From NCBI RefSeq assembly GCF_000800455.1, contig NZ_CP007456.1, forward strand, positions 2,046,001 to 2,110,000: DNA of 64,000 bases. The letters run 5' to 3'. The notes beneath the pieces were generated by a model. The model saw nothing but the letters and a program-made list of their open reading frames with translations. It was not told the DNA's origin and did no database searches. Positions 16,515 through 28,559 of the stretch are shown here, piece by piece; position 1 is the stretch's first letter; the number at the start of each line of letters is the position of its first letter. The translations under genes and the position numbers were made by a program. The DNA is from Bifidobacterium catenulatum PV20-2. GTDB lineage: Bacteria > Actinomycetota > Actinomycetes > Actinomycetales > Bifidobacteriaceae.

Positions 16515-16922
16515 TCATCCCTGTATTTCTTTCAATTGCTGTTCCAAAGTGTCAATGCGATCCTTCAGCTCAAGCACCTGACACGTCAACGATCGAATCT
16601 GCCCCAACTGCACAGACACCAGTCGTTCGCGCGTCTCGGAAGACAACGGCCCCGACGAGCCTCCGCTTTTCGCAGCGGCCATGATATCCGGATCCGCCTT
16701 CCAGCGCGCGATATTACGCTCCACACGCTTGCGACCGACAATCGCAGGGCTCAATCCAGCCGACGTGAAAATCGAACTCGGTCTCTCGCCATCCAAATAT
16801 CTGCGCATGCAGCTGATTTGAAAATCACGCGAATACGTGATCCTGTTCTGCGTAACCGACTCAACCGCCGGCAACGCACGAAGATACTCGACCTCCGTAT
16901 TGCTAAACTGCCTTTTCGTCAT
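16515..16922 (-). CDS. Stand-alone helix-turn-helix protein (IS3 OrfA-like)
   Basis: About 135 residues. It has the two-part layout of the HTH-domain family related to IS3-type Orf[33 protein letters not shown] followed by [15 protein letters not shown] (DNA-binding part, about residues 30-85), then a C-terminal leucine-zipper-like coil ([26 protein letters not shown]). No transposase OrfB accompanies it and no terminal repeats are seen, so it is more likely a domesticated regulator than an active insertion sequence. The ATG at 16922 (MTKRQFS) is chosen from the family pattern. Confidence 0.7.
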
Positions 16923-17131
16923 ATCGACCCCATTCACTCGACAAAACGGAATACCTTTTTTCGCGCTCGCAGATTACCTTCGCAAACGAAAGTATCCGAA
17001 CGGCATATACTATCACCTCACACGCGATGGTATGGGGGCTTGCGCCACCCGAATCGCTCTACGCTAAACCTGAACGAGCCCCAGCATGTACAGTTGCATA
17101 CTGTCACCATCGATGCACCAAAGGAGCCACC

Positions 17132-19196: not shown

Positions 19197-19362
19197 TGCT
19201 GTTTCCTCTATTGCTTCTTCTCTGTAAGAATCAGATTGATGTCGATTCCGCTCTCGGCGGACAACAGCGTCCAACACTACTCCCCACACTGGAAGTCGAG
19301 CACAAAAAGGCTTGACAGGCCGTCGGCTTGCCGGACAGTCATACGGAAATCGGAAAACAAAA

Positions 19363-19414
19363 AAGCCTTGGAACCGGAGTTCCAAGGCTTTAACTGTGCC
19401 CCCTCAGGGATTCG
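19363..19414. repeat. Left attachment-site repeat: duplicated terminator plus tRNA-Lys 3' end
   Basis: The hairpin with 12-base arms at 19363-19374 and 19379-19390, followed by a copy of the last 18 bases of tRNA-Lys (19397-19414), duplicates the terminator and 3' end of the intact tRNA-Lys at 28452-28503. Identity stops after ATTCG, where the tRNA sequence is lost. Outside the repeat the flank leads to glpF. This is the expected scar when an element integrates into a tRNA 3' end. Confidence 0.85.
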
Positions 19415-20608
19415 GACATATCAAGTTGCAGGCAACAGACACCGCCAATCCCCATACTTGCGGCCAAGCAGATGTACTCACACTGGCCAACGGCATCCTG
19501 TCATTCGGGTTCCTGACCATCGTTATTCGTAAACCTAGTCGCCAGTAAGGTAGCCACCCTTTTCCTATGATGCTGGCGGGGAATTCCTCGCCTTTTCTTT
19601 TCTCTGAATCATTCCTGGTCCTGCAGAGACGTATGTGAAGTAGCGCAACGCGGGAACACCGAAAGAGCTTGTAATGGAAAAGCATGTAGGTGCATTTTTA
19701 GGTGCGAAAGCCGACACGGGCAGAAGTACTTCCGAGGTGAGCAATAGGTCTAGGTCCAATCGGTCAGTCAGAACTACAAGGAGGAGGAACTCCACCCACG
19801 CGGGACGAGCCCCGGAACAAGTGGGAATCGGTCATAGCAGGATTGGATTCCGCCGAGCAACTGTATGCGTGACAGTTCCGATATAAGAACCCGATCGATC
19901 CCAGTAAGAAAGTACAACGTCAGTTCAAACCGGAATTCAAAGCGGAGACATGCCGGCGGCTCGCTGAGGGGCATAAGCTCGTCATCATGCATGAAAAGGG
20001 TATCAAACAATGGATTCACGACCGAACGGGCTAAGGCCAAAGCTACGTTTCAGATTACATTTGGCGATTTTATGCAGAACGAATTCATCCCCGGATACCG
20101 TAAATCCGATGGCACCCCTTGGCCGGGTCATCGAAACGGAACCTGAGAGCGGATTGCTCTCATTTTCTTCCCTCATTGGAACATCCGAAAGTCGCCGACA
20201 TCACGCCCAGATACGCGATTCCGCTGGACAGCGAATCATAGCCAAGCAGTTCCTTCGACGAACATGACACACGCCGGTCCCCGACCGCCTATTCCCGGCC
20301 GTCCTCCCGTGCCGCTTGTCCCCAGAGACCTTACCGATTTTGACGCCAGACATGGCGGCACGCTCCTTCCCCTGACCCGACTACCGGCCTTCTCCCTCAA
20401 CGAGGGTATGCCCCAAACACACCAGCCACAGGCCACCATCAATCGTGGCGAACCTGACAAATAACTGAAGCACCTGATTCAACAAATCCACGACGGCCTC
20501 CATTGACACCCATCGTCAGGGAAAACCAGCAGGATAGCGACGGGCAGAAGAGCTTCGTTGCCCGCTGCACAAAAGCAAGGCCGTTTCCGGATTCGGTAAT
20601 AGAAAAAA
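19415..20608. other. Left arm of the island: decayed DNA without an intact gene
   Basis: About 1.2 kb in which I find no convincing full gene. It holds an IS3 OrfA-like fragment (separate entry). At 20031-20140 a stretch encoding ITFGDFMQNEFIPGYR resembles the N-terminal arm-binding part of a tyrosine recombinase; this would be the missing integrase but the similarity is weak. A 66-codon Pro-rich frame at 20264-20464 lacks a ribosome-binding site. Frames are interrupted, as expected for decay. Confidence 0.5.
19902..20034 (+). pseudogene. Fragment of an IS3-type transposase OrfA
   Basis: Reading from about 19907, the frame gives KKVQRQFKPEFKAET, then CRRLAEGHK, a good match to the start of IS3-family OrfA proteins (RKRRxFSPEFKAEAVRLxxEG). 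The frame ends at a stop after about 42 codons and no OrfB follows. It is a relic of an insertion sequence in the island's left arm. Confidence 0.5.
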
Positions 20609-20632
20609 GGAGACGAGCAAAAGCTCGCCTCC
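20609..20632 (-). terminator. Terminator of the bacteriocin-like gene
   Basis: Stem GGAGACGAGC (20609-20618) and GCTCGCCTCC (20623-20632) with an AAAA loop. On the minus strand the stem is followed by TTTTTT. It sits 20 bases past the stop of the secreted peptide gene, giving that gene a private transcript. Confidence 0.85.
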
Positions 20633-20651
20633 TCAATGCATGTTTCCGAGC

Positions 20652-20951
20652 TTAGCGGAACCAGACCTGAGCGTGGTGGCTGGTCGAGTAGCCGTCATCG
20701 GCGTAGGCGCGACTGGATTGGAGTGTCCATCCGGTACTCGCTACGCGCTTGCCATGCTGCGCGTAGGATCGGCCTTGAGTTCCGCCGTTGGTCCAGGTCT
20801 GGGCCAGGGCGTAGTCGGTGCCGGCGTGGAGGACATAGGTTCCGGCTGCGTTGGCCGCAGGGACGGTGAAGGCCATCATGGCCGCTGCCGCCGCGACGAT
20901 TGTTCCGGTTTTGCCCAGCAGACCGATCCTGCTCTTGGTCATAGTGTTCAT
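20652..20951 (-). CDS. Secreted bacteriocin-like peptide (lactococcin 972-like)
   Basis: 99 residues. A Sec signal peptide is clear: basic start MNTMTKSRIGLLGK, hydrophobic core TIVAAAAAMMAFTV, cleavage at AANA before AGTYVL. The mature part is about 64 residues, cysteine-free, rich in Gly, Ser, Thr, Tyr, His and Trp, with GRSYAQHGKRVASTGW and HHAQVWFR at the end. Length, lack of cysteines and the S-Y-x-H-G...S core recall lactococcin 972-type bacteriocins; this is pattern recognition, not a proven match. The ATG at 20951 follows GGAAGGGAACTCC. It has its own strong promoter and terminator and lies beside a TetR regulator and an ABC exporter cluster. Confidence 0.6.
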   Translation of the reverse strand: MNTMTKSRIGLLGKTGTIVAAAAAMMAFTVPAANAAGTYVLHAGTDYALAQTWTNGGTQGRSYAQHGKRVASTGWTLQSSRAYADDGYSTSHHAQVWFR

Positions 20952-21001
20952 AGGAGTTCCCTTCCACTTGGTTTTCGACAACCTTTCTGGTTGACACTCC
21001 C

Positions 21002-21033
21002 ATAATAGATATTGACTGAACAGTCAGTCAATA
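21002..21033 (-). promoter_or_regulatory. Promoter with TetR-type palindromic operator before the bacteriocin-like gene
   Basis: On the minus strand a -35 TTGACT (21026-21031) and a -10 TATTAT (21002-21007) are 18 bases apart, the most consensus-like promoter I noticed here. The -35 and spacer are covered by a perfect palindrome with 10-bp arms TATTGACTGA and TCAGTCAATA around ACAG (21010-21033). A repressor bound there would block RNA polymerase; the adjacent TetR gene is the obvious candidate. Confidence 0.75.
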
Positions 21034-21062
21034 TTTTTGATGATTCTGGCCATATGCGTTTC

Positions 21063-21632
21063 TTATGAGGCGCTATCAGACCGTTTCTCCGCATCCTTCA
21101 GACCGGTCAATGAGAACAGGAAACCAAGGGCCTGGTGAAGCTGCCGCTCGTCCTTCCACCGATTAGAACGCATAATGGCGACGTACATGTCGGCCACGGC
21201 TCCGACCTGGATCCCCGGCATCTCGCTCGGGTCGTTTCCGAGAGTGGCCTTCAAGCAGACTTCGAGAGACTCCTCCCATTCCATGCGGCTTTTAACTCCC
21301 CGTCGTGCCTCTTCATCGTACAGCAGCAGTCCGGCACGTATTCTCGCGTCCTCATGGTGCAGGTCGGCGACTTTCGTGAGCATGTGTATGCACCCGCCCC
21401 GGCCGTCGCTGCCCGCCATGGTCGCGCACAGGCGCTCATCACACCATGCAACGAGGGTATCGCGCAAGGCTTCCTTCGTATGGAAATGGAACAGCACCGT
21501 GCCTCGCGTCAGTCCGAGACGGTCTGCGACGCCCTGCAGGGTGGTTTTCTCGTATCCGTACGCTTCGAATTCCTGAGCGGCCGCCTCCAGCAGGGCCTCA
21601 CGAGTCCTGCGCCTTCGTTCCGCGTTGTCCAT
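21063..21632 (-). CDS. TetR-family transcriptional regulator
   Basis: 189 residues. The N-terminal HTH is typical: RTREALLEAAAQEFEAYGYEKTTLQGVADRLGLTRGTVLFHFHTKEALRDTL (about residues 9-60). The ligand domain has DARIRAGLLLYDEE and ends in FLFSLTGLKDAEK. The HTH and the ARIRAGLLL block faintly resemble gamma-butyrolactone receptors of the ScbR/ArpA type, but I cannot assign a ligand. It lies upstream of the bacteriocin-like gene on the same strand, and the operator in the gap between them fits direct repression. A related half-site pair precedes its own start, suggesting autoregulation. Confidence 0.85.
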   Translation of the reverse strand: MDNAERRRRTREALLEAAAQEFEAYGYEKTTLQGVADRLGLTRGTVLFHFHTKEALRDTLVAWCDERLCATMAGSDGRGGCIHMLTKVADLHHEDARIRAGLLLYDEEARRGVKSRMEWEESLEVCLKATLGNDPSEMPGIQVGAVADMYVAIMRSNRWKDERQLHQALGFLFSLTGLKDAEKRSDSAS

Positions 21633-21650
21633 GAGAACCCTCGCATTCTG

Positions 21651-21666
21651 TTGACCATCAAGTCAA
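21651..21666. promoter_or_regulatory. Second putative TetR operator, before the tetR-like gene
   Basis: TTGAC and GTCAA separated by six bases, 18 bases upstream of the regulator's ATG. The operator at the peptide gene contains the same TTGAC-N6-GTCA arrangement. The match is short, so this is a candidate only. Confidence 0.45.
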
Positions 21667-21706
21667 AACGTTTCTCAGGATATCCATTGCCGTGGATTCG
21701 TTCAAC

Positions 21707-22999
21707 TCATCCGGCGGAGTACTCCCCGAACGTGATTGCCGCATGGAATATGTCCGGTGTGGGCCGGCCGATGGTGAGTGTGGCTCCGATGATGTCGGTA
21801 CATGCCTTGGCGATGGACAGGCCGAGACCATGGCCGGGCTGGTCGGCCATACGGGTGGCGTCGCCGCGGTGGAACGGCTGGAGGAGATCCGTCGCGTCCG
21901 TGGGGTCCATAAATGGTTTCGTGGTGTTGTCGATGGTGATGGCGGTCTGCCCGTGGCCGGTGTGGATGGCGCAGGTGATGGTGCCGTGGTCAGTGTTGTG
22001 GACGATAGCGTTGCGGATGAGGTTGTCAACGGCGAGGGCGAGGTAGCGGGGATCCGTGTCGATGGTAGTGCCGTCGTGGCTGTCGAGTCCCCGGGCGTCG
22101 ATGATCAGGTGGCGCAGGCGGGCTTGTCCAGCGTGGTTGCGGAGCGCGGCGCGTATGGCACCGGCCGGGCTGGTGGGTTCGTGTCGCGTGTCGGGGGCAG
22201 TCTGGATACGGGAGAGTTCGAGCAGGCTGGTGATGAGCTCGCCGCTTCTGCGGTTCGCTGCGATGGCGTGGTGGATAGCAGGTTTGACGTCGTCGGGGAA
22301 ACGATCCTGGGCCATGAGCGCTTCGAGGCTAGTGCCGATGACGGTGATCGGGGTCCTTAGCTCGTGACCGGCGTTGCGGATGAACGAACGTTGCAGGTCG
22401 TTGGTCTGCTCGATGCGCTCCAGCATGGCGTTGAGCGAGGCGGCGAGGCTTGCGGTCTCGGCGTCCGGATTGTCGAGGTGGATGCGCGTGGAGGGGTGTT
22501 CGGGGTCGAGGCTGGCGGCTTGGCAGCTGATGGAGTCGAGCCGCGCGGTGAGCCGTCCCGACAGCCTCCACACGAGGAGCATGGTCAGGAGCGCGGCCAT
22601 GGCGAACACAGCTAGTGACCCGTAGCGCATCCATTGCACGACGTTGTCCCTGACGGTGAGCACCACGCCCTCAGTCCCGGATCGTGTGCCGTCAGTGGGT
22701 ATGGTGCCGGTCGCAGTGCAGGGGTCCGCGTCGCAGGATTCGGCGGTGCCCGACACCCCGTCAGATTCGGTTGGTGTCGTCGTGGGGGCGGCCGTCCCGC
22801 CGCCGGTGGAAATGGTATCGACCTGGTGCTGAAACGCCCAGTCGAGCGAGATGTTCTGGATGAGAATCACGGCCAGAAGCATGCCGAGCAGGAGCAGGCC
22901 CACACCGACGGCGAGGCGGGTGCGAAAGCTGGCGGGCTTGCATGCATGTCGCCTTGCGGGGCGCTCCGCCCGTCCGGCGGAGGATGGTGCGGCAGTCAT
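21707..22999 (-). CDS. Membrane sensor histidine kinase
   Basis: 430 residues. TM1 is at about 28-50 (LAVGVGLLLLGMLLAVILIQ), then an extracytoplasmic sensor loop of about 90 residues, TM2 at about 137-158, and a HAMP linker. The H-box is FIRNAGHELRTPITVIGTS with the phosphoacceptor His, the N-box is DNLIRNAIVHN, and the G2 box is GHGLGLSIAKA. The D/F boxes are weak (ITIDNTTKPFM), which is unusual but not disabling. Its start overlaps the response-regulator stop by four bases (ATGA), so the two are co-translated. High G+C codon use matches the rest of the cargo. The signal may be the peptide or cell-wall stress. Confidence 0.9.
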   Translation of the reverse strand: MTAAPSSAGRAERPARRHACKPASFRTRLAVGVGLLLLGMLLAVILIQNISLDWAFQHQVDTISTGGGTAAPTTTPTESDGVSGTAESCDADPCTATGTIPTDGTRSGTEGVVLTVRDNVVQWMRYGSLAVFAMAALLTMLLVWRLSGRLTARLDSISCQAASLDPEHPSTRIHLDNPDAETASLAASLNAMLERIEQTNDLQRSFIRNAGHELRTPITVIGTSLEALMAQDRFPDDVKPAIHHAIAANRRSGELITSLLELSRIQTAPDTRHEPTSPAGAIRAALRNHAGQARLRHLIIDARGLDSHDGTTIDTDPRYLALAVDNLIRNAIVHNTDHGTITCAIHTGHGQTAITIDNTTKPFMDPTDATDLLQPFHRGDATRMADQPGHGLGLSIAKACTDIIGATLTIGRPTPDIFHAAITFGEYSAG

Positions 23000-23658
23000 G
23001 GTATGCGGTATCCCTTCCCGCGTGAGGACGCGATGAGCGTGGAGTCGGGCAGTTTGCGACGCAGCGAGTGCACGGCGGTCTTGACGAGGTCTGGCTGGCC
23101 GTGCGATTCGGCCGGCCAGAGCGATTCGAGCAGGACGGTGGTGGCGGTCCAGCCGCCGTCGGCACGCAACAGCTCCTCCAGGAGCGCGTATTCGCGGGGC
23201 GCGAGGTCGAGGGGTTGTCCGTCGGCGTAGGCGAGCCGTCTGACGGTATCCACGCTCAGGCGACCCCGAGAGAGTATGGTGGGCGCGTCGTCCGCCCCGC
23301 CGCGGCGCAGGAGCGCGCGGATGCGGGCGAGGAGCTCGGGGTAGGCGAACGGCTTGGCCAGATAGTCGTCGGCCCCCAGGTCGAGTCCCCGCACGCGGTC
23401 CTCGACGCTTCCAGCGGCGGTGAGCATGAGCGTGCGCACGGGGATGCGCAGCCGGTCGACAGTGCGCATGACCTCGTCGCCGGAGAGCACAGGCAGGTCG
23501 CGGTCGAGGAGCATCACGTCGTACGTTCCCTGCGAGAGGCGGTCCAACGCCTCGATGCCGGTCGCGGCCAGGTCAGTCGCGTACCCCTCGTGTCTGAGAC
23601 AGTCATCGAGCACGGCCGACAGGTCGGCGTCGTCCTCAATGATCAAGATCCTCGCCAT
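22996..23658 (-). CDS. OmpR/PhoB-family response regulator
   Basis: 220 residues. The receiver has ILIIEDDADL, the phosphoacceptor Asp in VMLLDRDLPVLSGDE, the Thr of LMLTAAG and the Lys of LGADDYLAKPF. The winged helix has APREYALLEELLRADGGWTATTVLLESLWP and VKTAVHSLRRKLPDSTLIASSRGKGYRIP. The ATG at 23658 is chosen because the receiver starts immediately (MARILIIEDD) and GGAGG precedes it; the upstream in-frame extension is not receiver-like. It is divergent from the lipoprotein-ABC operon, whose promoter region carries an inverted repeat that could be its binding site. Confidence 0.92.
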   Translation of the reverse strand: MARILIIEDDADLSAVLDDCLRHEGYATDLAATGIEALDRLSQGTYDVMLLDRDLPVLSGDEVMRTVDRLRIPVRTLMLTAAGSVEDRVRGLDLGADDYLAKPFAYPELLARIRALLRRGGADDAPTILSRGRLSVDTVRRLAYADGQPLDLAPREYALLEELLRADGGWTATTVLLESLWPAESHGQPDLVKTAVHSLRRKLPDSTLIASSRGKGYRIP

Positions 23659-23726
23659 ATTCTCGTCGCCTCCGATTCCCCGCACGCCCTCCATGCAATC
23701 GTATCCGTTCCCCCATTGTGCTCGAC

Positions 23727-23762
23727 GTGGGTGTGCGTTAGGTGAGCGCGACACGCACCCAC
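23727..23762. promoter_or_regulatory. Inverted repeat in the divergent regulator/lipoprotein promoter region
   Basis: GTGGGTG (23727-23733) and CACCCAC (23756-23762) lie in the 198 bases between the response regulator and the first lipoprotein gene, within a run of related GTGTGCG/CGCAC motifs. The position suits a response-regulator site, but the G+C-rich context could give such repeats by chance. Confidence 0.35.
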
Positions 23763-23856
23763 CGCACACGGTGCGCCGGCTGTAATGGGCATCGTCCGGC
23801 AACCGCCGAGCCAAGCATCGTCTCGACAACCACGAACCCGTGCAGAGGAGGAACAC

Positions 23857-24258
23857 ATGCGAACCACATCCGTTCTCAGACTGGCGGCGGCCGCGGCGCT
23901 AGCCGCCATGACGCTCGTACCGCTGTCGGCATGCGGCCAACAGCCGTCACACTCATCCGGCGCTTCGTCCGCGTCAGCGTCGCGGGAGGCGGTTCCGAAG
24001 ACCGACAGCCAGAGCGACGATGCGCTGCAGGACGCGAGCCCGGCCTCGAAACAGGCCGCCGAAGCGTACCGCGACTGCCTTGCATCCGCAGGCATGCCCG
24101 CGCAGATCATGGACGGCGACTGGGTCGCGCTCCAGTGGACGGGCGACGACTCGGGATCGGCATCATCGGGATCCGAGGACGGAGAGCGGGACAAGGCCAT
24201 CAGGGAATGCCAAGCCAAGGTGCCAGACTACCACGATCCAGACTTCAACACCAGATGA
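23857..24258 (+). CDS. Small lipoprotein
   Basis: 133 residues. The signal peptide ends in a lipobox: MTLVPLSACGQQ, cysteine at residue 26. A Ser/Ala-rich spacer is followed by a short conserved domain with two cysteines (YRDCLASAGMPAQI...RECQAKVPDYHDPDF) that could form a disulfide. The function is unknown. The ATG at 23857 follows GAGGAGGAACAC. It is the first gene of the rightward cargo operon; its stop overlaps an ATG in frame with the next lipoprotein. Confidence 0.85.
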   Translation: MRTTSVLRLAAAAALAAMTLVPLSACGQQPSHSSGASSASASREAVPKTDSQSDDALQDASPASKQAAEAYRDCLASAGMPAQIMDGDWVALQWTGDDSGSASSGSEDGERDKAIRECQAKVPDYHDPDFNTR

Positions 24259-24293
24259 ACAGACCAGCATCAGCCGATGGAAGGAAGACCATC

Positions 24294-24983
24294 ATGACCA
24301 TCACACCATCATCATCGACCGCACGCCCCACGGCATTGCGCAGGGCGGCCGTATTGCTGTCCTGCATGGGACTGCTCGCCTCGCTAACGGCCTGCTCCAC
24401 TCCCTGGGGCGGGACCGATGTCGGTGATACACAGGCGTCGGGGGCGAGGATCGCTCCGAGCATGGACGCACTGTTCGACCAGTACCTCGCCAAGGACACA
24501 CTCAGCCAGTTCGAACGCGATGTGCTCCAACGGGCCAAGAAGACCGGCAGGATCAGCGCCGAGGACTACGAGACCGCGCACGACAAGCAGGCCGCGTGCA
24601 TGGCCGAGAACGGCTGGCGGGAACAGACCCGCAAACTGTCCAACGGGCTCTACCAGACCACCGGAGTGACGCCGGTACCATCGACCGATGCTGAGGTGAA
24701 CAAGTACATGGAGACGTCCAACACCTGCTCCGAAGGCGTCAGCAAGGTCATCGAATCCATCTACCAGCTCCAGCAGGGCAACCCCGGGCTCTTAGCCGAC
24801 CCGTACGAGACCGCCGTGGAATGCCTGAAGAAAGGCAACCTCGTTGACAAGGCCTACACCGGACGCAAACTCGAAAACGCGCTAAGTAAGGACGGCACGT
24901 CCAAGGGGCTAACCTTCGATGCCTCGTCGGACGCGGCCCAGTCTTGCTTCGCCGGGGCCGGCCTCGCCGTCAACATCGGCTGA
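24294..24983 (+). CDS. Lipoprotein of the ABC cargo operon
   Basis: 229 residues. Signal peptide with lipobox GLLASLTACSTP. The mature domain is helical with paired cysteines (KQAACMAENGW, SNTCSEGV, AVECLKKGN, AQSCFAGAG), a spacing related to the preceding lipoprotein (C...GW/GM...C), so the two may be diverged relatives. The ATG at 24294 has GGAAGGAAG before it; an alternative ATG at 24255 overlaps the upstream stop as ATGA and would add 13 residues. Function unknown; surface placement beside an ABC system suggests binding or immunity. Confidence 0.8.
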   Translation: MTITPSSSTARPTALRRAAVLLSCMGLLASLTACSTPWGGTDVGDTQASGARIAPSMDALFDQYLAKDTLSQFERDVLQRAKKTGRISAEDYETAHDKQAACMAENGWREQTRKLSNGLYQTTGVTPVPSTDAEVNKYMETSNTCSEGVSKVIESIYQLQQGNPGLLADPYETAVECLKKGNLVDKAYTGRKLENALSKDGTSKGLTFDASSDAAQSCFAGAGLAVNIG

Positions 24984-25018
24984 TAAACCCCCGGACCCCG
25001 ACGAAAGGAACCGACCCG

Positions 25019-26086
25019 ATGAAGACAAGAATCCTGACCCCACTGATACTGACCGGACTGGGCATGCTGTCCGCGGGCGTGCTCGCCACCGCGTTGATCA
25101 TTCCCACGCCTACGCCCGACGGGCTGGCCTCGCCCACGAGCCCCGACACCGTCACAGCCAGCCGACAGCAGTTCGCCGACGAACGCACCGTCGAAGCCTC
25201 GTTCGAGACCATCGCCGAACAGCCAATCACCTCACGCGCGGCCGGCACCGTCAGTGAGACCCTATGCACGCCCGGGCAGACGTTCGAATCCGGCACACGC
25301 CTGCTGTCCGTGGACGGCAGGCCCATCATCGCCCTGCACACCGACACGCCCCTCTACCGCGAGATCGGTACCGGCGACAGCGGGCCCGACGTGCTCGCCC
25401 TGCAACAGGAACTCGCCCGCCTCGGCTACAACGCCGAAGGCAACGGCACCTACGGGTGGCGCACCGCGGACGGCGTCAGACAACTATTCTCCCGGGCTGG
25501 CAAAACCAATCCCGACGGCAGAATCGGGCCCGCCGACGTGGCGTGGCTGCCCCAGACGTCCGCCACGCCCACCCAATGCACAGCCGGCCTGAACATGAGC
25601 CTGGCGGATGGTGCCGAGATCATGAAGACCGGCGGCCAGCTGATCGCCGTCACCTTCCCCACACCCGCGAACCTGAGCGAAGGCAAACGCACGTTCACGC
25701 TCTTCGGCGTCAAGACCAGCCTCGACGCCGACGGCATCGGTAAGACCGGCGGCAGGATCAGCGACCAGAAATTCCTCGACCAGATCCAGGCCAGCGACGG
25801 CTACAAAACCACCCTCGCCGACCAAGGCGGCAAGAAACCCACCGCCACACTCGCGCTCGAGCAGCCCATCGACACGACCAAGGTCCCGCCCTCTGCCATC
25901 ACCGGCCAGAACGGCACCCACGCCTGCGTCTCGTCAGACGGCAAACAGGCCATCCCCGTCACCGTTATCGGCTCCGCGCTCGGAGCCACCCTCGTCCAAC
26001 CCGAACAAGCCGACGCCTCCATCGACAAAGTCGTGCTCGGCCACAAACTCGACAAAGTCCAATGCCCCACCGAAACACAACACTGA
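25019..26086 (+). CDS. Exported adaptor with a peptidoglycan-binding domain (MacA-like)
   Basis: 355 residues. An N-terminal membrane anchor (LILTGLGMLSAGVLATALII) is followed by a lipoyl/barrel-like part (ITSRAAGTVSETLCTPGQTFESGTRLLSVDGRPIIAL). A peptidoglycan_binding_1 domain is inserted at about residues 120-170: GDSGPDVLALQQELARLGY, then GWRTADGVRQLF. The C-terminal part returns to beta-rich adaptor sequence ending in VVLGHKLDKVQC. This layout is common in actinobacterial MacA-like proteins paired with MacB-type transporters. It probably couples the ABC transporter to the wall. ATG at 25019, GAAAGGAACC upstream. Confidence 0.8.
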   Translation: MKTRILTPLILTGLGMLSAGVLATALIIPTPTPDGLASPTSPDTVTASRQQFADERTVEASFETIAEQPITSRAAGTVSETLCTPGQTFESGTRLLSVDGRPIIALHTDTPLYREIGTGDSGPDVLALQQELARLGYNAEGNGTYGWRTADGVRQLFSRAGKTNPDGRIGPADVAWLPQTSATPTQCTAGLNMSLADGAEIMKTGGQLIAVTFPTPANLSEGKRTFTLFGVKTSLDADGIGKTGGRISDQKFLDQIQASDGYKTTLADQGGKKPTATLALEQPIDTTKVPPSAITGQNGTHACVSSDGKQAIPVTVIGSALGATLVQPEQADASIDKVVLGHKLDKVQCPTETQH

Positions 26087-26102
26087 CACAAGGAGGACGA
26101 GC

Positions 26103-26834
26103 GTGAAAACCAGCATCACACCCCTGGAGATGGTCGCCAATCCCGCACCCACGCGACCACAAACCCCCGCCATGCAGCCTCAAGATGGCGGGCCCCCGTC
26201 GGTCACTGGCAGGCACGTGGGCCACCGGTTCGCAGATGACCCCTGGCTGTTCCGCGACCTCGACTTCACCCTTACCACCGGCGAGGCCGTCGGCCTGTGC
26301 GGGCCATCCGGCTCCGGAAAATCCACCCTCCTGTCCGTCATCGCCGGATTCGAGACACCTACGGAAGGCACCATCCGCCGCAGCAGGATCAACCGCGTGC
26401 GCTGGGTGTTCCAGAACCCCCACGGCATGCCGCGACGTACCGCCATTGACCACGTCGTCCAACCCCTGCTCGGCCAAGGCATCAGCCGCACACATGCCGA
26501 AGACGAGGCCATCGCTATCATGAGCACGTTCCACCTGACCAAAGTCGCCGCACGCGAGTTCCGCGAACTGTCCGGAGGCGAGGCCCAGCGCCTCATGCTC
26601 GCACGCGCCATCGCCAGCAGACCCGACCTGCTCCTCGTGGATGAACCCACCGCCCAACTCGACCAACGCACCGCCAACGACATCGACGCCACCCTCACCG
26701 GACTCGCCCAAGGCGACGCGATCGTCGTCATTGCCACCCACGACCCCAACACCCGGGCCGCCTGCACCCGCGTCATCGACCTCGCATGGCACAACCCGAA
26801 CCCCACCCCTGACACCAAGGACGACACACGATGA
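26103..26834 (+). CDS. ABC transporter ATP-binding protein (MacB/LolD type)
   Basis: 243 residues. Walker A GLCGPSGSGKSTLLSVIAGFE, Q-loop RWVFQNPHG, signature FRELSGGEAQRLMLARAIAS, Walker B LLLVDEPTAQLD, and H-loop VIATHDPNTR. Start is a GTG at 26103 directly after GGAGGACGAGC. It overlaps the permease by four bases (ATGA). Its family is used for extruding peptides and for bacteriocin export or immunity. Confidence 0.93.
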   Translation: MKTSITPLEMVANPAPTRPQTPAMQPQDGGPPSVTGRHVGHRFADDPWLFRDLDFTLTTGEAVGLCGPSGSGKSTLLSVIAGFETPTEGTIRRSRINRVRWVFQNPHGMPRRTAIDHVVQPLLGQGISRTHAEDEAIAIMSTFHLTKVAAREFRELSGGEAQRLMLARAIASRPDLLLVDEPTAQLDQRTANDIDATLTGLAQGDAIVVIATHDPNTRAACTRVIDLAWHNPNPTPDTKDDTR

Positions 26835-27940
26835 AACCGACCGCCATCCTGTCCGAAGCATGGCGCAACATCGCCACCGGCACCACCCGCGCCCTCACCT
26901 GCGCCACCATACTCACCCTCATCGCCGCCGGCACCGCCATATTCGACCTGACCGGTATCCTCGCCCTGCAACACGAATCACGCCAATGGGCCACCAGCGC
27001 CGCCGCCATCCACATCATCTCCGGCAACAAACAGATCGACCCCATCACCTGCGCCGACCTCACCCAAGCCACTGGTACCACCCGCGATCACACCCGCACA
27101 ACCCCCATCCAAGCGGCAGGCGCACTCAAAAGCAGCGGGGAAATCACCCTGACCGCCATGCCATCCGCGCCCTTGGACGCATGGCAGGCCACACCGGGAC
27201 TCGCGAACGTGCTCGGCATCGGCGCGACACAGCAGACCCGACCCGGCGTATGGATCTCCAGTCAACTCGCCGCCACCCTCCACGCGCGCGAGGGAGACGA
27301 CCTGCCCACCACCCAAGGCATCATGCACATCAGCGCGGTCTTCCCCTGGGCCGACGACAGCCGCGACCAACGACCCTCCTACGCGATCATCACCCCCACC
27401 CCCATCGACACAGGCCAGCAATGGGACGAATGCTGGGCCACCATCGACCCCGCCAACCCTGACGCCGAGGACCTGCTCAACACCGCCGCCATACCCGGAA
27501 CCGCGCCCGCCACCCAGACCAAACAAGCCAACACCTTGCTCGGTACCAACCCCGACCTCGACAACCGCTACCGGCAGCGAACCACCCGCATCATGCTCGC
27601 CATCACCCCCATCGCCGCGTTCGTCATCGCCTTGACGGCCACACGCGCACGACGCATCGAAATAGCCGACAGCCTGCACATGGGACTGCCACGCCAAGGC
27701 ATCCTCGCTACCGGCATACTCGAAACACTCGCATGGACCCTGCCCGCCATCCTCGCCGCCACCGCCACCGTCTACACCACGGCTCGATGGACAAGCGGGC
27801 ACGCCAACGCCCTGACCCTGACCGCCATACAACTACCCGCACTCACCGCAGCCCTCATCACCGCCCAGATCGGCACCATCACCGCCATCACTGTCATACA
27901 CGACAACCAGCTCTTCGCCTTCTTCAAAAACAGGCAATGA
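26831..27940 (+). CDS. ABC transporter permease (FtsX/MacB-like)
   Basis: 369 residues in the MacB topology: one N-terminal helix (ALTCATILTLIAAGTAIFDLTGIL), a large external domain of about 220 residues, and three C-terminal helices (IMLAITPIAAFVIALTATRA, GILETLAWTLPAILAATATVYT, LPALTAALITAQIGTITAITVI). The cytosolic link IEIADSLHMGLPRQGIL is the usual FtsX-type coupling loop. Such transporters do not pump through a channel but drive exported adaptors, here the peptidoglycan-binding partner. Last gene of the cargo operon. Confidence 0.88.
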   Translation: MKPTAILSEAWRNIATGTTRALTCATILTLIAAGTAIFDLTGILALQHESRQWATSAAAIHIISGNKQIDPITCADLTQATGTTRDHTRTTPIQAAGALKSSGEITLTAMPSAPLDAWQATPGLANVLGIGATQQTRPGVWISSQLAATLHAREGDDLPTTQGIMHISAVFPWADDSRDQRPSYAIITPTPIDTGQQWDECWATIDPANPDAEDLLNTAAIPGTAPATQTKQANTLLGTNPDLDNRYRQRTTRIMLAITPIAAFVIALTATRARRIEIADSLHMGLPRQGILATGILETLAWTLPAILAATATVYTTARWTSGHANALTLTAIQLPALTAALITAQIGTITAITVIHDNQLFAFFKNRQ

Positions 27941-28072
27941 GCCCTGAAGGAACACCGGGTTCCCATGCAACTCCCAGCCAACACCCACATCATGCCGAGA
28001 CTCGCGTTGTTCTATGGAACCACGGCCGCAGGGCCGGATAACTGAACCCTTCTTCTCTCTTCTCTCTTAAGA

Positions 28073-28094
28073 CCGGCCGCACAGCCGGGCTTTT
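28073..28094 (+). terminator. Possible terminator of the cargo operon
   Basis: Short stem CCGGC / GCCGG with a six-base loop followed by GCTTTT, 133 bases past the permease stop. The stem is short, so confidence is limited. Confidence 0.4.
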
Positions 28095-28117
28095 CCTCTG
28101 CCCGCCCGGGCCGCGGC

Positions 28118-28384
28118 GATGACGGCATCCACCTGCACCGCGACGCAGTCATGCTCATCGCAGTCTCCGGCGGCCACGTGGTCGGATGGCACGTGGCGAG
28201 GAGCGAGACAGGCACGGCCTGGTCGTCGCTGTTGTCCAGGATCGCGCCGCCGCTGGCGGCGGTGTGCGACGGCGGGGACGGCGGGGACGGCGCACTCAAG
28301 GCGCTGCGCGAGATCTGGCCGTCCACCCGGGTGCAGCACTGCCTGCTCCACCGTCCCTCCGAATACCACGGCATCCCCGACTAA
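28118..28384 (+). pseudogene. Fragment of an IS1249-like (mutator type) transposase
   Basis: The frame DDGIHLHRDAVMLIAVS, then GGHVVGWHVARSETGTAWSSLL, IAPPLAAVCDGG, ALKALREIWPSTRVQHCLLH matches the catalytic start of IS1249/IS256-type transposases (VDGxxL...A.SxxHVxxWxLARSE...WPxTRVQRCLFH). Only about 88 codons remain; the N-terminus and everything after the CLLH helix are missing. It lies inside the right edge of the island. Confidence 0.6.
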
Positions 28385-28451
28385 GCCACGGACAGACACA
28401 CATTTTGGCCTATAACCCGCCGGACGGCCATGCAGAAATCGAAAAAACAAA

Positions 28452-28503
28452 AAACCTTGGAACCGGAGTTCCAAGGTTTCATCTGTGCCCCCTCAGGGAT
28501 TCG
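28452..28503. repeat. Right attachment-site repeat (terminator and tRNA 3' end)
   Basis: Hairpin arms at 28452-28463 and 28468-28479 around CGGA are the natural terminator of the tRNA-Lys gene; together with 28486-28503 (tRNA 3' end) they repeat the left site at 19363-19414. The two copies differ at a few bases, so the insertion is not recent. Confidence 0.85.
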
Positions 28504-28559
28504 AACCCTGGACACGCTGATTAAGAGTCAGCTGCTCTAACCAACTGAGCTAAAGGGGC
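28486..28559 (-). tRNA. tRNA-Lys (anticodon CUU)
   Basis: 74 bases on the minus strand. Acceptor stem GCCCCTT with AGGGGGC, D-arm GCTC...GAGC, anticodon stem GCTGA/TCAGC with loop CTCTTAA (anticodon CTT, reads AAG), and T-arm CAGGG-TTCGAAT-CCCTG. CCA is not encoded. It remains intact because the island copy regenerated its 3' end. Confidence 0.95.

Follow-up and report, generated by a model that had tools for sequence, protein, structure and literature searches.

In Bifidobacterium catenulatum PV20-2, an island inserted between glpF and tRNA-Lys(CTT) carries nine genes that, with a probability of roughly 60%, encode a Sec-secreted bacteriocin together with a sensor-controlled immunity module of lipoproteins and a wall-anchored ATP-binding cassette (ABC) pump. 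The window, the whole stretch of DNA that was analyzed, is 64,000 nucleotides long (C1:2046001-2110000 of a single-contig genome of 2,370,978 bp), and positions without a locus number refer to it. The cargo forms two divergent units, peptide-tetR-histidine kinase-response regulator and lipo1-lipo2-peptidoglycan-binding adaptor-ABC ATPase-permease, and all the genes named in the original prediction, an earlier account of this DNA, are present. As we picture the system, the peptide would be secreted through Sec, and TetR would repress it, and probably itself too, from a palindromic operator. The kinase/response-regulator pair would sense the peptide or its damage to the wall and turn on the divergent operon, whose two lipoproteins would shield the cell from outside the membrane while the peptidoglycan-bound adaptor and the MacB-type ABC pump would clear the peptide from the wall.

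The secreted peptide gene (20652..20951, minus strand) is an open reading frame (ORF) of 99 amino acids with relatives that define a conserved family. Judged by eye it has a Sec-type signal that ends in ANA-AG, without a double-glycine leader, and the mature part is Cys-free and about 63 amino acids long. Its structure model is poor (predicted local distance difference test score, pLDDT, of 60) with five strands in the last 55 residues, and a fold search against the PDB (Foldseek, VIA-align 2) gave nothing above background, an absence that is uninformative. The same strand carries the TetR-family regulator (21063..21632; PF00440), the sensor histidine kinase (21707..22999; PF00512, PF02518, with two transmembrane segments by hydropathy) and the OmpR-type response regulator (22996..23658; PF00072, PF00486). 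On the plus strand, lipo1 (23857..24258) is an ORF with the lipobox LSAC, and lipo2 (24294..24983), the proposed immunity lipoprotein, has four Cys that are invariant in the alignment besides that of the lipobox. The lipo2 model is confident and mostly helical (pLDDT 82.7, core over 90); the same fold search against the PDB found no match above background, which again is uninformative. The adaptor (25019..26086, plus strand) joins an N-terminal membrane segment, seen by hydropathy, to a peptidoglycan-binding domain (PF01471, over cut-off) and has a weak RND/HlyD adaptor match (TIGR01730, below cut-off). The ABC ATPase follows (26103..26834, plus strand; PF00005 and PDB matches), with matches that include LolD/FtsE-group proteins and with the NCBIfam models among the matches listed all below cut-off. 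The permease (26831..27940, plus strand) has one N-terminal and three C-terminal hydrophobic segments and a large outside domain, as predicted by hydropathy; no Pfam family matched it at E<=0.1, hence no MacB or FtsX domain, and it is MacB-like in layout only. The ATPase was the sole match in an anti-phage defence scan, to ATPase-bearing models, and the permease as query found nothing in plasmids (tblastn) or in one viral-contig scan.

This gene order is conserved well beyond the window. Among 13 loci from other genomes, chosen as best permease matches, five (L034-L037 and L041, from B. callitrichos, rousetti, reuteri, vespertilionis and tibiigranuli) have all nine genes in order at 42-89% identity, the L035 peptide being in two pieces. 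In four loci the genes from the kinase through to the permease are present and neither the peptide nor tetR has a match (L038 ends at a contig end just past the kinase), and a further four match lipo2, adaptor, ATPase and permease only; B. miconisargentati, leontopitheci, oedipodis and amazonense are further species among the loci compared. There is no tRNA in the five nine-gene stretches (17 kb), indicating that the locus is not tied to tRNA-Lys, and the neighbours in L034 are lacZ and a glucosamine-6-phosphate isomerase gene. In the B. reuteri locus, a 369-amino-acid ORF of no Pfam family (L036 788-1897) lies a short way past the peptide; the window has DNA homologous to both of its flanks (20204-20412 and 20418-20640) and lacks the ORF itself.

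Conserved promoter sites suggest how the two units may be controlled. The palindrome TATTGACTGA-ACAG-TCAGTCAATA before the peptide gene (21010..21033) is the probable TetR operator, and TTGACTGACTnGTCAGTCAA or a close variant occurs there in all six aligned peptide-tetR loci, four of them near-identical. A second site before tetR, TTGAC-n6-GTCAA (21651..21666), would point to autoregulation, and a TGACT/GTCAA site is present there in the six loci aligned. The divergent promoter between the response regulator gene and lipo1 contains a conserved block, GGGTGTGCGTTAGGTGAGCGCGACACGCACCC (23729..23760), that is the probable response-regulator site; these approximately 32 nucleotides are recognizable in all 10 aligned loci, the most distant pair, L041 and L042, having changed more than the rest. 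Because of these sites, we infer that TetR represses the peptide gene and itself and that the response regulator controls both divergent units.

The peptide is also linked to lipo2 across the genus. All 112 genus genomes were searched with three peptide sequences, and the distance of each site to the nearest lipo2 site was recorded, with duplicate rows merged in G027 and G020. For peptide families A, C and A' together, 21 of the 27 genome-wide sites are near lipo2: 6/6 for family A' (within 110 bp), 8/11 for family C (within 160 bp; the misses are in G012, G072 and G046) and 7/10 for family A (within 3.4 kb; E values are 5e-4 to 7e-3 at the remaining three). In G013 and G408 the gene immediately ahead of lipo2 is a family A member; G408 belongs to another taxonomic family, and there a TetR match adjoins the peptide. 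Damaged peptide genes are found beside an intact lipo2 frame in four genomes, partly draft assemblies, as frame splits (G068, G027), a remnant (L222 of G017) and an in-frame gap of about 21 codons (G020). A lipo2 profile (E <= 1e-10, at most 26 candidates per genome scored) finds at least 150 sites in 52 of the 112 genus genomes, and an order-wide search of 396 genomes (E <= 1e-8, at most 7 candidates per genome scored) gave a match in at least 27, 13 of them outside the genus. Immunity or detoxification would fit the ABC unit better than export, because at least 150 lipo2 sites in the genus stand against 27 sites of the three peptide families and because damaged peptides lie beside intact lipo2. 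The term export system in the original prediction is probably a misnomer: the peptide brings a Sec-type signal of its own, and ABC units are often found with no recognized peptide beside them, suggesting that the pump is probably not the peptide exporter.

The lipo2/permease family is multi-copy, and PV20-2 itself has two paralogous loci, a point that the original prediction did not make. Permease paralogues at approximately 26-35% identity occur across the genus, including these two loci (L047 6267-10035 and L048 7763-11050), each of which has peptide, lipo2, adaptor and permease; in L048 the ATPase match lies apart from the module on the other strand. Both have a gene for a small protein with a Sec-type signal directly before lipo2. 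A crude filter flagged both of these peptides as possible lipoproteins, and a homologue of one is without that Cys. The lipo2 genes are found in tandem in 20 groups of two to five genes less than 2 kb apart. Rows of four and five (L193 6819-10086; L256 5988-10829) look like immunity-gene arrays. More tentatively, and at somewhat below even odds, these loci may represent a class of small bacteriocins, polymorphic and so far unrecognized, that are secreted by Sec and occur in Bifidobacterium and other Actinomycetales. Its defining feature would be the partner of the fast-diverging peptide, namely a four-Cys lipoprotein without a PDB match together with a MacB-type ABC pump anchored to peptidoglycan. 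A two-component system would often control the module, copies lacking a peptide ('orphan immunity') and tandem lipoprotein arrays would be frequent, and PV20-2 would have three such systems. If this is true, narrow-spectrum weapons with immunity genes to match would be numerous, and as yet uncatalogued, in a common gut genus, and they would offer a testable explanation of why one Bifidobacterium strain might keep out another. Searches based on peptide homology would overlook most such systems, since conservation is confined to the lipoprotein and pump and the peptide diverges, and lipo2 would serve as a handle for finding the loci.

Several observations weigh against the bacteriocin reading. 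Its basis is genomics throughout, and the peptide matches no Pfam or NCBIfam family over cut-off and no known bacteriocin family; the earlier description of the locus as bacteriocin-like is supported only through inference from family-wide genomics. The module is kept without a peptide or tetR match in G005, G042 and G053. An open peptide frame lies beside remnants of lipo2 and permease in G012 (L262 7644-8556), the reverse of the immunity-kept pattern, as though a toxin-like gene had outlasted its module, and the family C sites of G072 and G046, the latter near a contig end, have no lipo2 or permease in the stretches examined. The G027 module is cut by a contig end, with only lipo2 known to be kept. 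Small Sec-like ORFs are not enriched near lipo2 (19 in 209,573 b versus 62 in 633,108 b elsewhere), in a stricter density test that missed peptides known by eye. By a crude filter, such an ORF is found upstream of 23 of 97 lipo2 genes, some of these hits being clear artefacts, versus 32 of 311 control ORFs.

The remaining 74 lipo2 genes, without a small Sec-like ORF within 400 bp directly upstream, would also suit a general unit for resistance to antimicrobial peptides or wall antibiotics, similar to BceRS-BceAB, in which the small secreted protein would be an accessory such as a decoy or sensor ligand. A two-component system beside an ABC unit is typical of detoxification modules. However, several divergent peptide families occur at the same position, damaged peptide genes lie beside kept lipo2 genes and the peptide appears to be under separate TetR control, all of which make this explanation unlikely.

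That the peptide belongs to the lactococcin 972 family, having diverged strongly, is quite improbable. The Sec signal, the Cys-free mature part of about 63 amino acids and the five beta strands of the model would agree with membership, and family genes over the Pfam cut-off are present in 14 of the 112 genus genomes. Nevertheless, there is no PF09683 match at E<=1 at the place of the peptide, the precursor is without a TIGR01653 match, hhalign gives a probability of 11% over 6 columns, and the ATPase scores 115.7 bits versus a TIGR03608 cut-off of 254.85. Lactococcin 972 clusters 'often' contain a DUF1430 protein, as stated in part of PMC12345188, and no DUF1430-type seven-transmembrane protein was found among the island proteins scanned. 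Membership received no support from Pfam, NCBIfam or hhalign, and the low-confidence peptide model had no clear PDB match. We do not propose a single peptide superfamily, as profile comparisons of five peptide groups with each other and with lactococcin 972 (15 pairs) were weak, with uncorrected P values of 0.0008 for B-C, 0.0014 for C-D, 0.035 for A-A' and 0.94 for A-lactococcin. Elsewhere in the PV20-2 genome, outside the window (C1:2028809; L001 1492-1881), there is a lactococcin 972 family gene that is over the Pfam cut-off and 0.9 bits under the TIGR01653 cut-off.

In the window and five other genomes, the peptide, tetR, kinase and response regulator genes follow one another on the same strand, as might be expected of a pheromone read by the kinase with the ABC proteins and lipoproteins as regulated output. 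Such a system is nevertheless very unlikely, given that the peptide stands before lipo2, outside a kinase unit, in the two PV20-2 paralogues, G013 and G408, that a tblastn search with the window kinase detected no counterpart close to the modules of G013 and G408 (diverged kinases could escape), and that the mature peptide is long for a pheromone.

For the favored reading, a bacteriocin with its immunity module, known systems offer parallels. Self-immunity to lantibiotics is provided by LanI and LanFEG (NisI and NisFEG), a lipoprotein and an ABC pump under a two-component system. The arrangement proposed here would be similar in organization, a comparison that does not extend to homology; in contrast to LanI/LanFEG, the island locus has no modification enzymes that we could see, a different permease and a wall-bound adaptor. 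It resembles lactococcin 972 clusters (PF09683/TIGR01653) in having a Sec-secreted, apparently unmodified small protein that is predicted to be beta-rich, a cluster ABC ATPase and a wall-related theme, and differs in the absence of a sequence-family match and of the DUF1430 seven-transmembrane protein and in the addition of a two-component system, TetR, two lipoproteins and a peptidoglycan-binding adaptor. The system may work like either of these and yet is classed with neither. Like MacAB-type pumps, it has an adaptor, an ATPase with LolD-group matches and a permease with 1+3 hydrophobic segments, but the island permease matches no Pfam family and the island adaptor has a peptidoglycan-binding domain. 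No title or abstract opening in the literature searched on bifidobacterial bacteriocins, ABC systems and islands describes such a locus, in agreement with the original prediction, which knew of no described bifidobacterial bacteriocin locus like it. PMC9202165, which deals with B. catenulatum genomes, does not use the word bacteriocin in its main text. Table 1 of the PV20-2 exoproteome paper (PMC5219805), which contains only proteins with a homologue in another species, has no tag between AH68_09115 and AH68_09245 (ssb), where the island should lie.

The DNA that carries this cargo is very probably a tRNA-targeted genomic island of foreign origin, as indicated by a flanking repeat, empty sites, composition and other inserts at the same tRNA. 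The tRNA 3'-end repeat noted in the original prediction is real and longer than described: 88 nucleotides at 86% identity in direct orientation, with the displaced, attachment-site-like copy at 19330..19417 on the glpF side and the second copy at 28419..28506, at the intact tRNA-Lys(CTT) that would be the integration target (28485..28559, minus strand; ARAGORN). Each consists of approximately 22 nucleotides of tRNA (T-arm and acceptor stem), the hairpin of the terminator and a tail that is about 33 nucleotides long. To the right of the left copy, at 19418, the similarity to the tRNA ceases, and the DNA to the left of this copy is collinear into glpF with the empty sites of G038 and G019, in which glpF lies 85 and 89 bp from the tRNA, as had been predicted beforehand for strains without the island. 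Compared by eye, the left tail is nearest to the G038 empty site and the right tail to that of G019, as expected if the element carried its own tRNA end from a related strain. The G+C content of 19415-28418 is 0.631 versus 0.539 for the rest of the window, and it is uneven. The foreign composition that had been noted for the whole insert is found in 21663-27950 (0.655) and not in the first 2.2 kb (19415-21662; 0.558). Codon use, the other check proposed at the outset, deviates more than in all background window ORFs of similar length for the response regulator (15/15), ATPase (17/17) and permease (22/22), and nearly so for the adaptor (24/25) and kinase (22/24); the counts are lower for lipo2 (11/15) and tetR (5/9). 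In three relatives measured, the module has a G+C content of 0.643, 0.643 and 0.627 and its flanks 0.652, 0.644 and 0.616, and since its composition is native there, the donor was likely a G+C-richer Bifidobacterium.

The element would have entered by site-specific integration at the tRNA-Lys 3' end and lost its integrase later. Consistent with the earlier remark that no intact integrase is present, the island contains no PF00589 match (serine recombinases were not searched for), and all nine matches in the genome lie outside the window. A possible transposase remnant is located inside the right end (28151..28384, plus strand; weak PF00872 match, E 0.043, below cut-off). On the glpF side, outside the island, 16515-16937 encodes a transposon-related helix-turn-helix protein (HTH_Tnp_2). 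Insertion at a tRNA 3' end, a flanking repeat and empty sites are features shared with tRNA-integrated islands and actinomycete integrative and conjugative elements (AICEs), from which this island differs in that no integrase was recognized in it and its scanned proteins showed neither a Rep nor a Tra domain.

The same tRNA-Lys is a repeatedly used insertion site in the genus, since relatives have different inserts there, one of them with an intact integrase. Searches for glpF and rplI in 112 genus genomes matched in 107 and 109, and intervals were compared in 60 other genomes hand-picked for having both on one contig within about 20 kb. In these 61 loci, the window included, the tRNA has the orientation of the window in 49 and is inverted in 12. 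The gap between glpF and the tRNA was measured in 48 of the 49 (L105 was left out, as glpF is beyond the stretch) and is <=250 bp in 20, 251-1000 bp in 13 and >1000 bp in 15, of which 7 exceed 4000 bp. An integrase (PF00589) search covered 15 genomes. G005 has an intact tyrosine integrase adjoining tRNA-Lys, with helix-turn-helix, FtsK-type (Tra) and helicase-type genes and a 15-nucleotide repeat by glpF, and G015 has a 34-nucleotide perfect repeat and a truncated integrase. These two sites also argue against the explanation that no integrative element was involved and that the repeat was left behind by a tRNA-Lys duplication or by homologous exchange among relatives. The two tRNA-Lys copies at the site in some relatives (L092, L099, L102 and L103), the lack of an integrase in the window and the resemblance of the two repeat copies to two different relatives would fit such a history, which we nonetheless judge highly improbable. 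The G005 element (L079 1640-12661) is AICE-like and also encodes a 1177-amino-acid protein ending in DUF5648. The G020 insert (L055 5783-14675) has a ThiF-family enzyme, two ABC units, a LuxR-type regulator and a major facilitator superfamily gene, and resembles a ThiF-type (microcin-C-like) cluster for a ribosomally synthesized and post-translationally modified peptide. If these readings hold, tRNA-Lys would be a site where bacteriocin-immunity cargo and a different peptide-antibiotic-like cluster are exchanged. The G015 insert (L081 3511-9996) is related to that of G020, with open frames in common as judged from their first residues.

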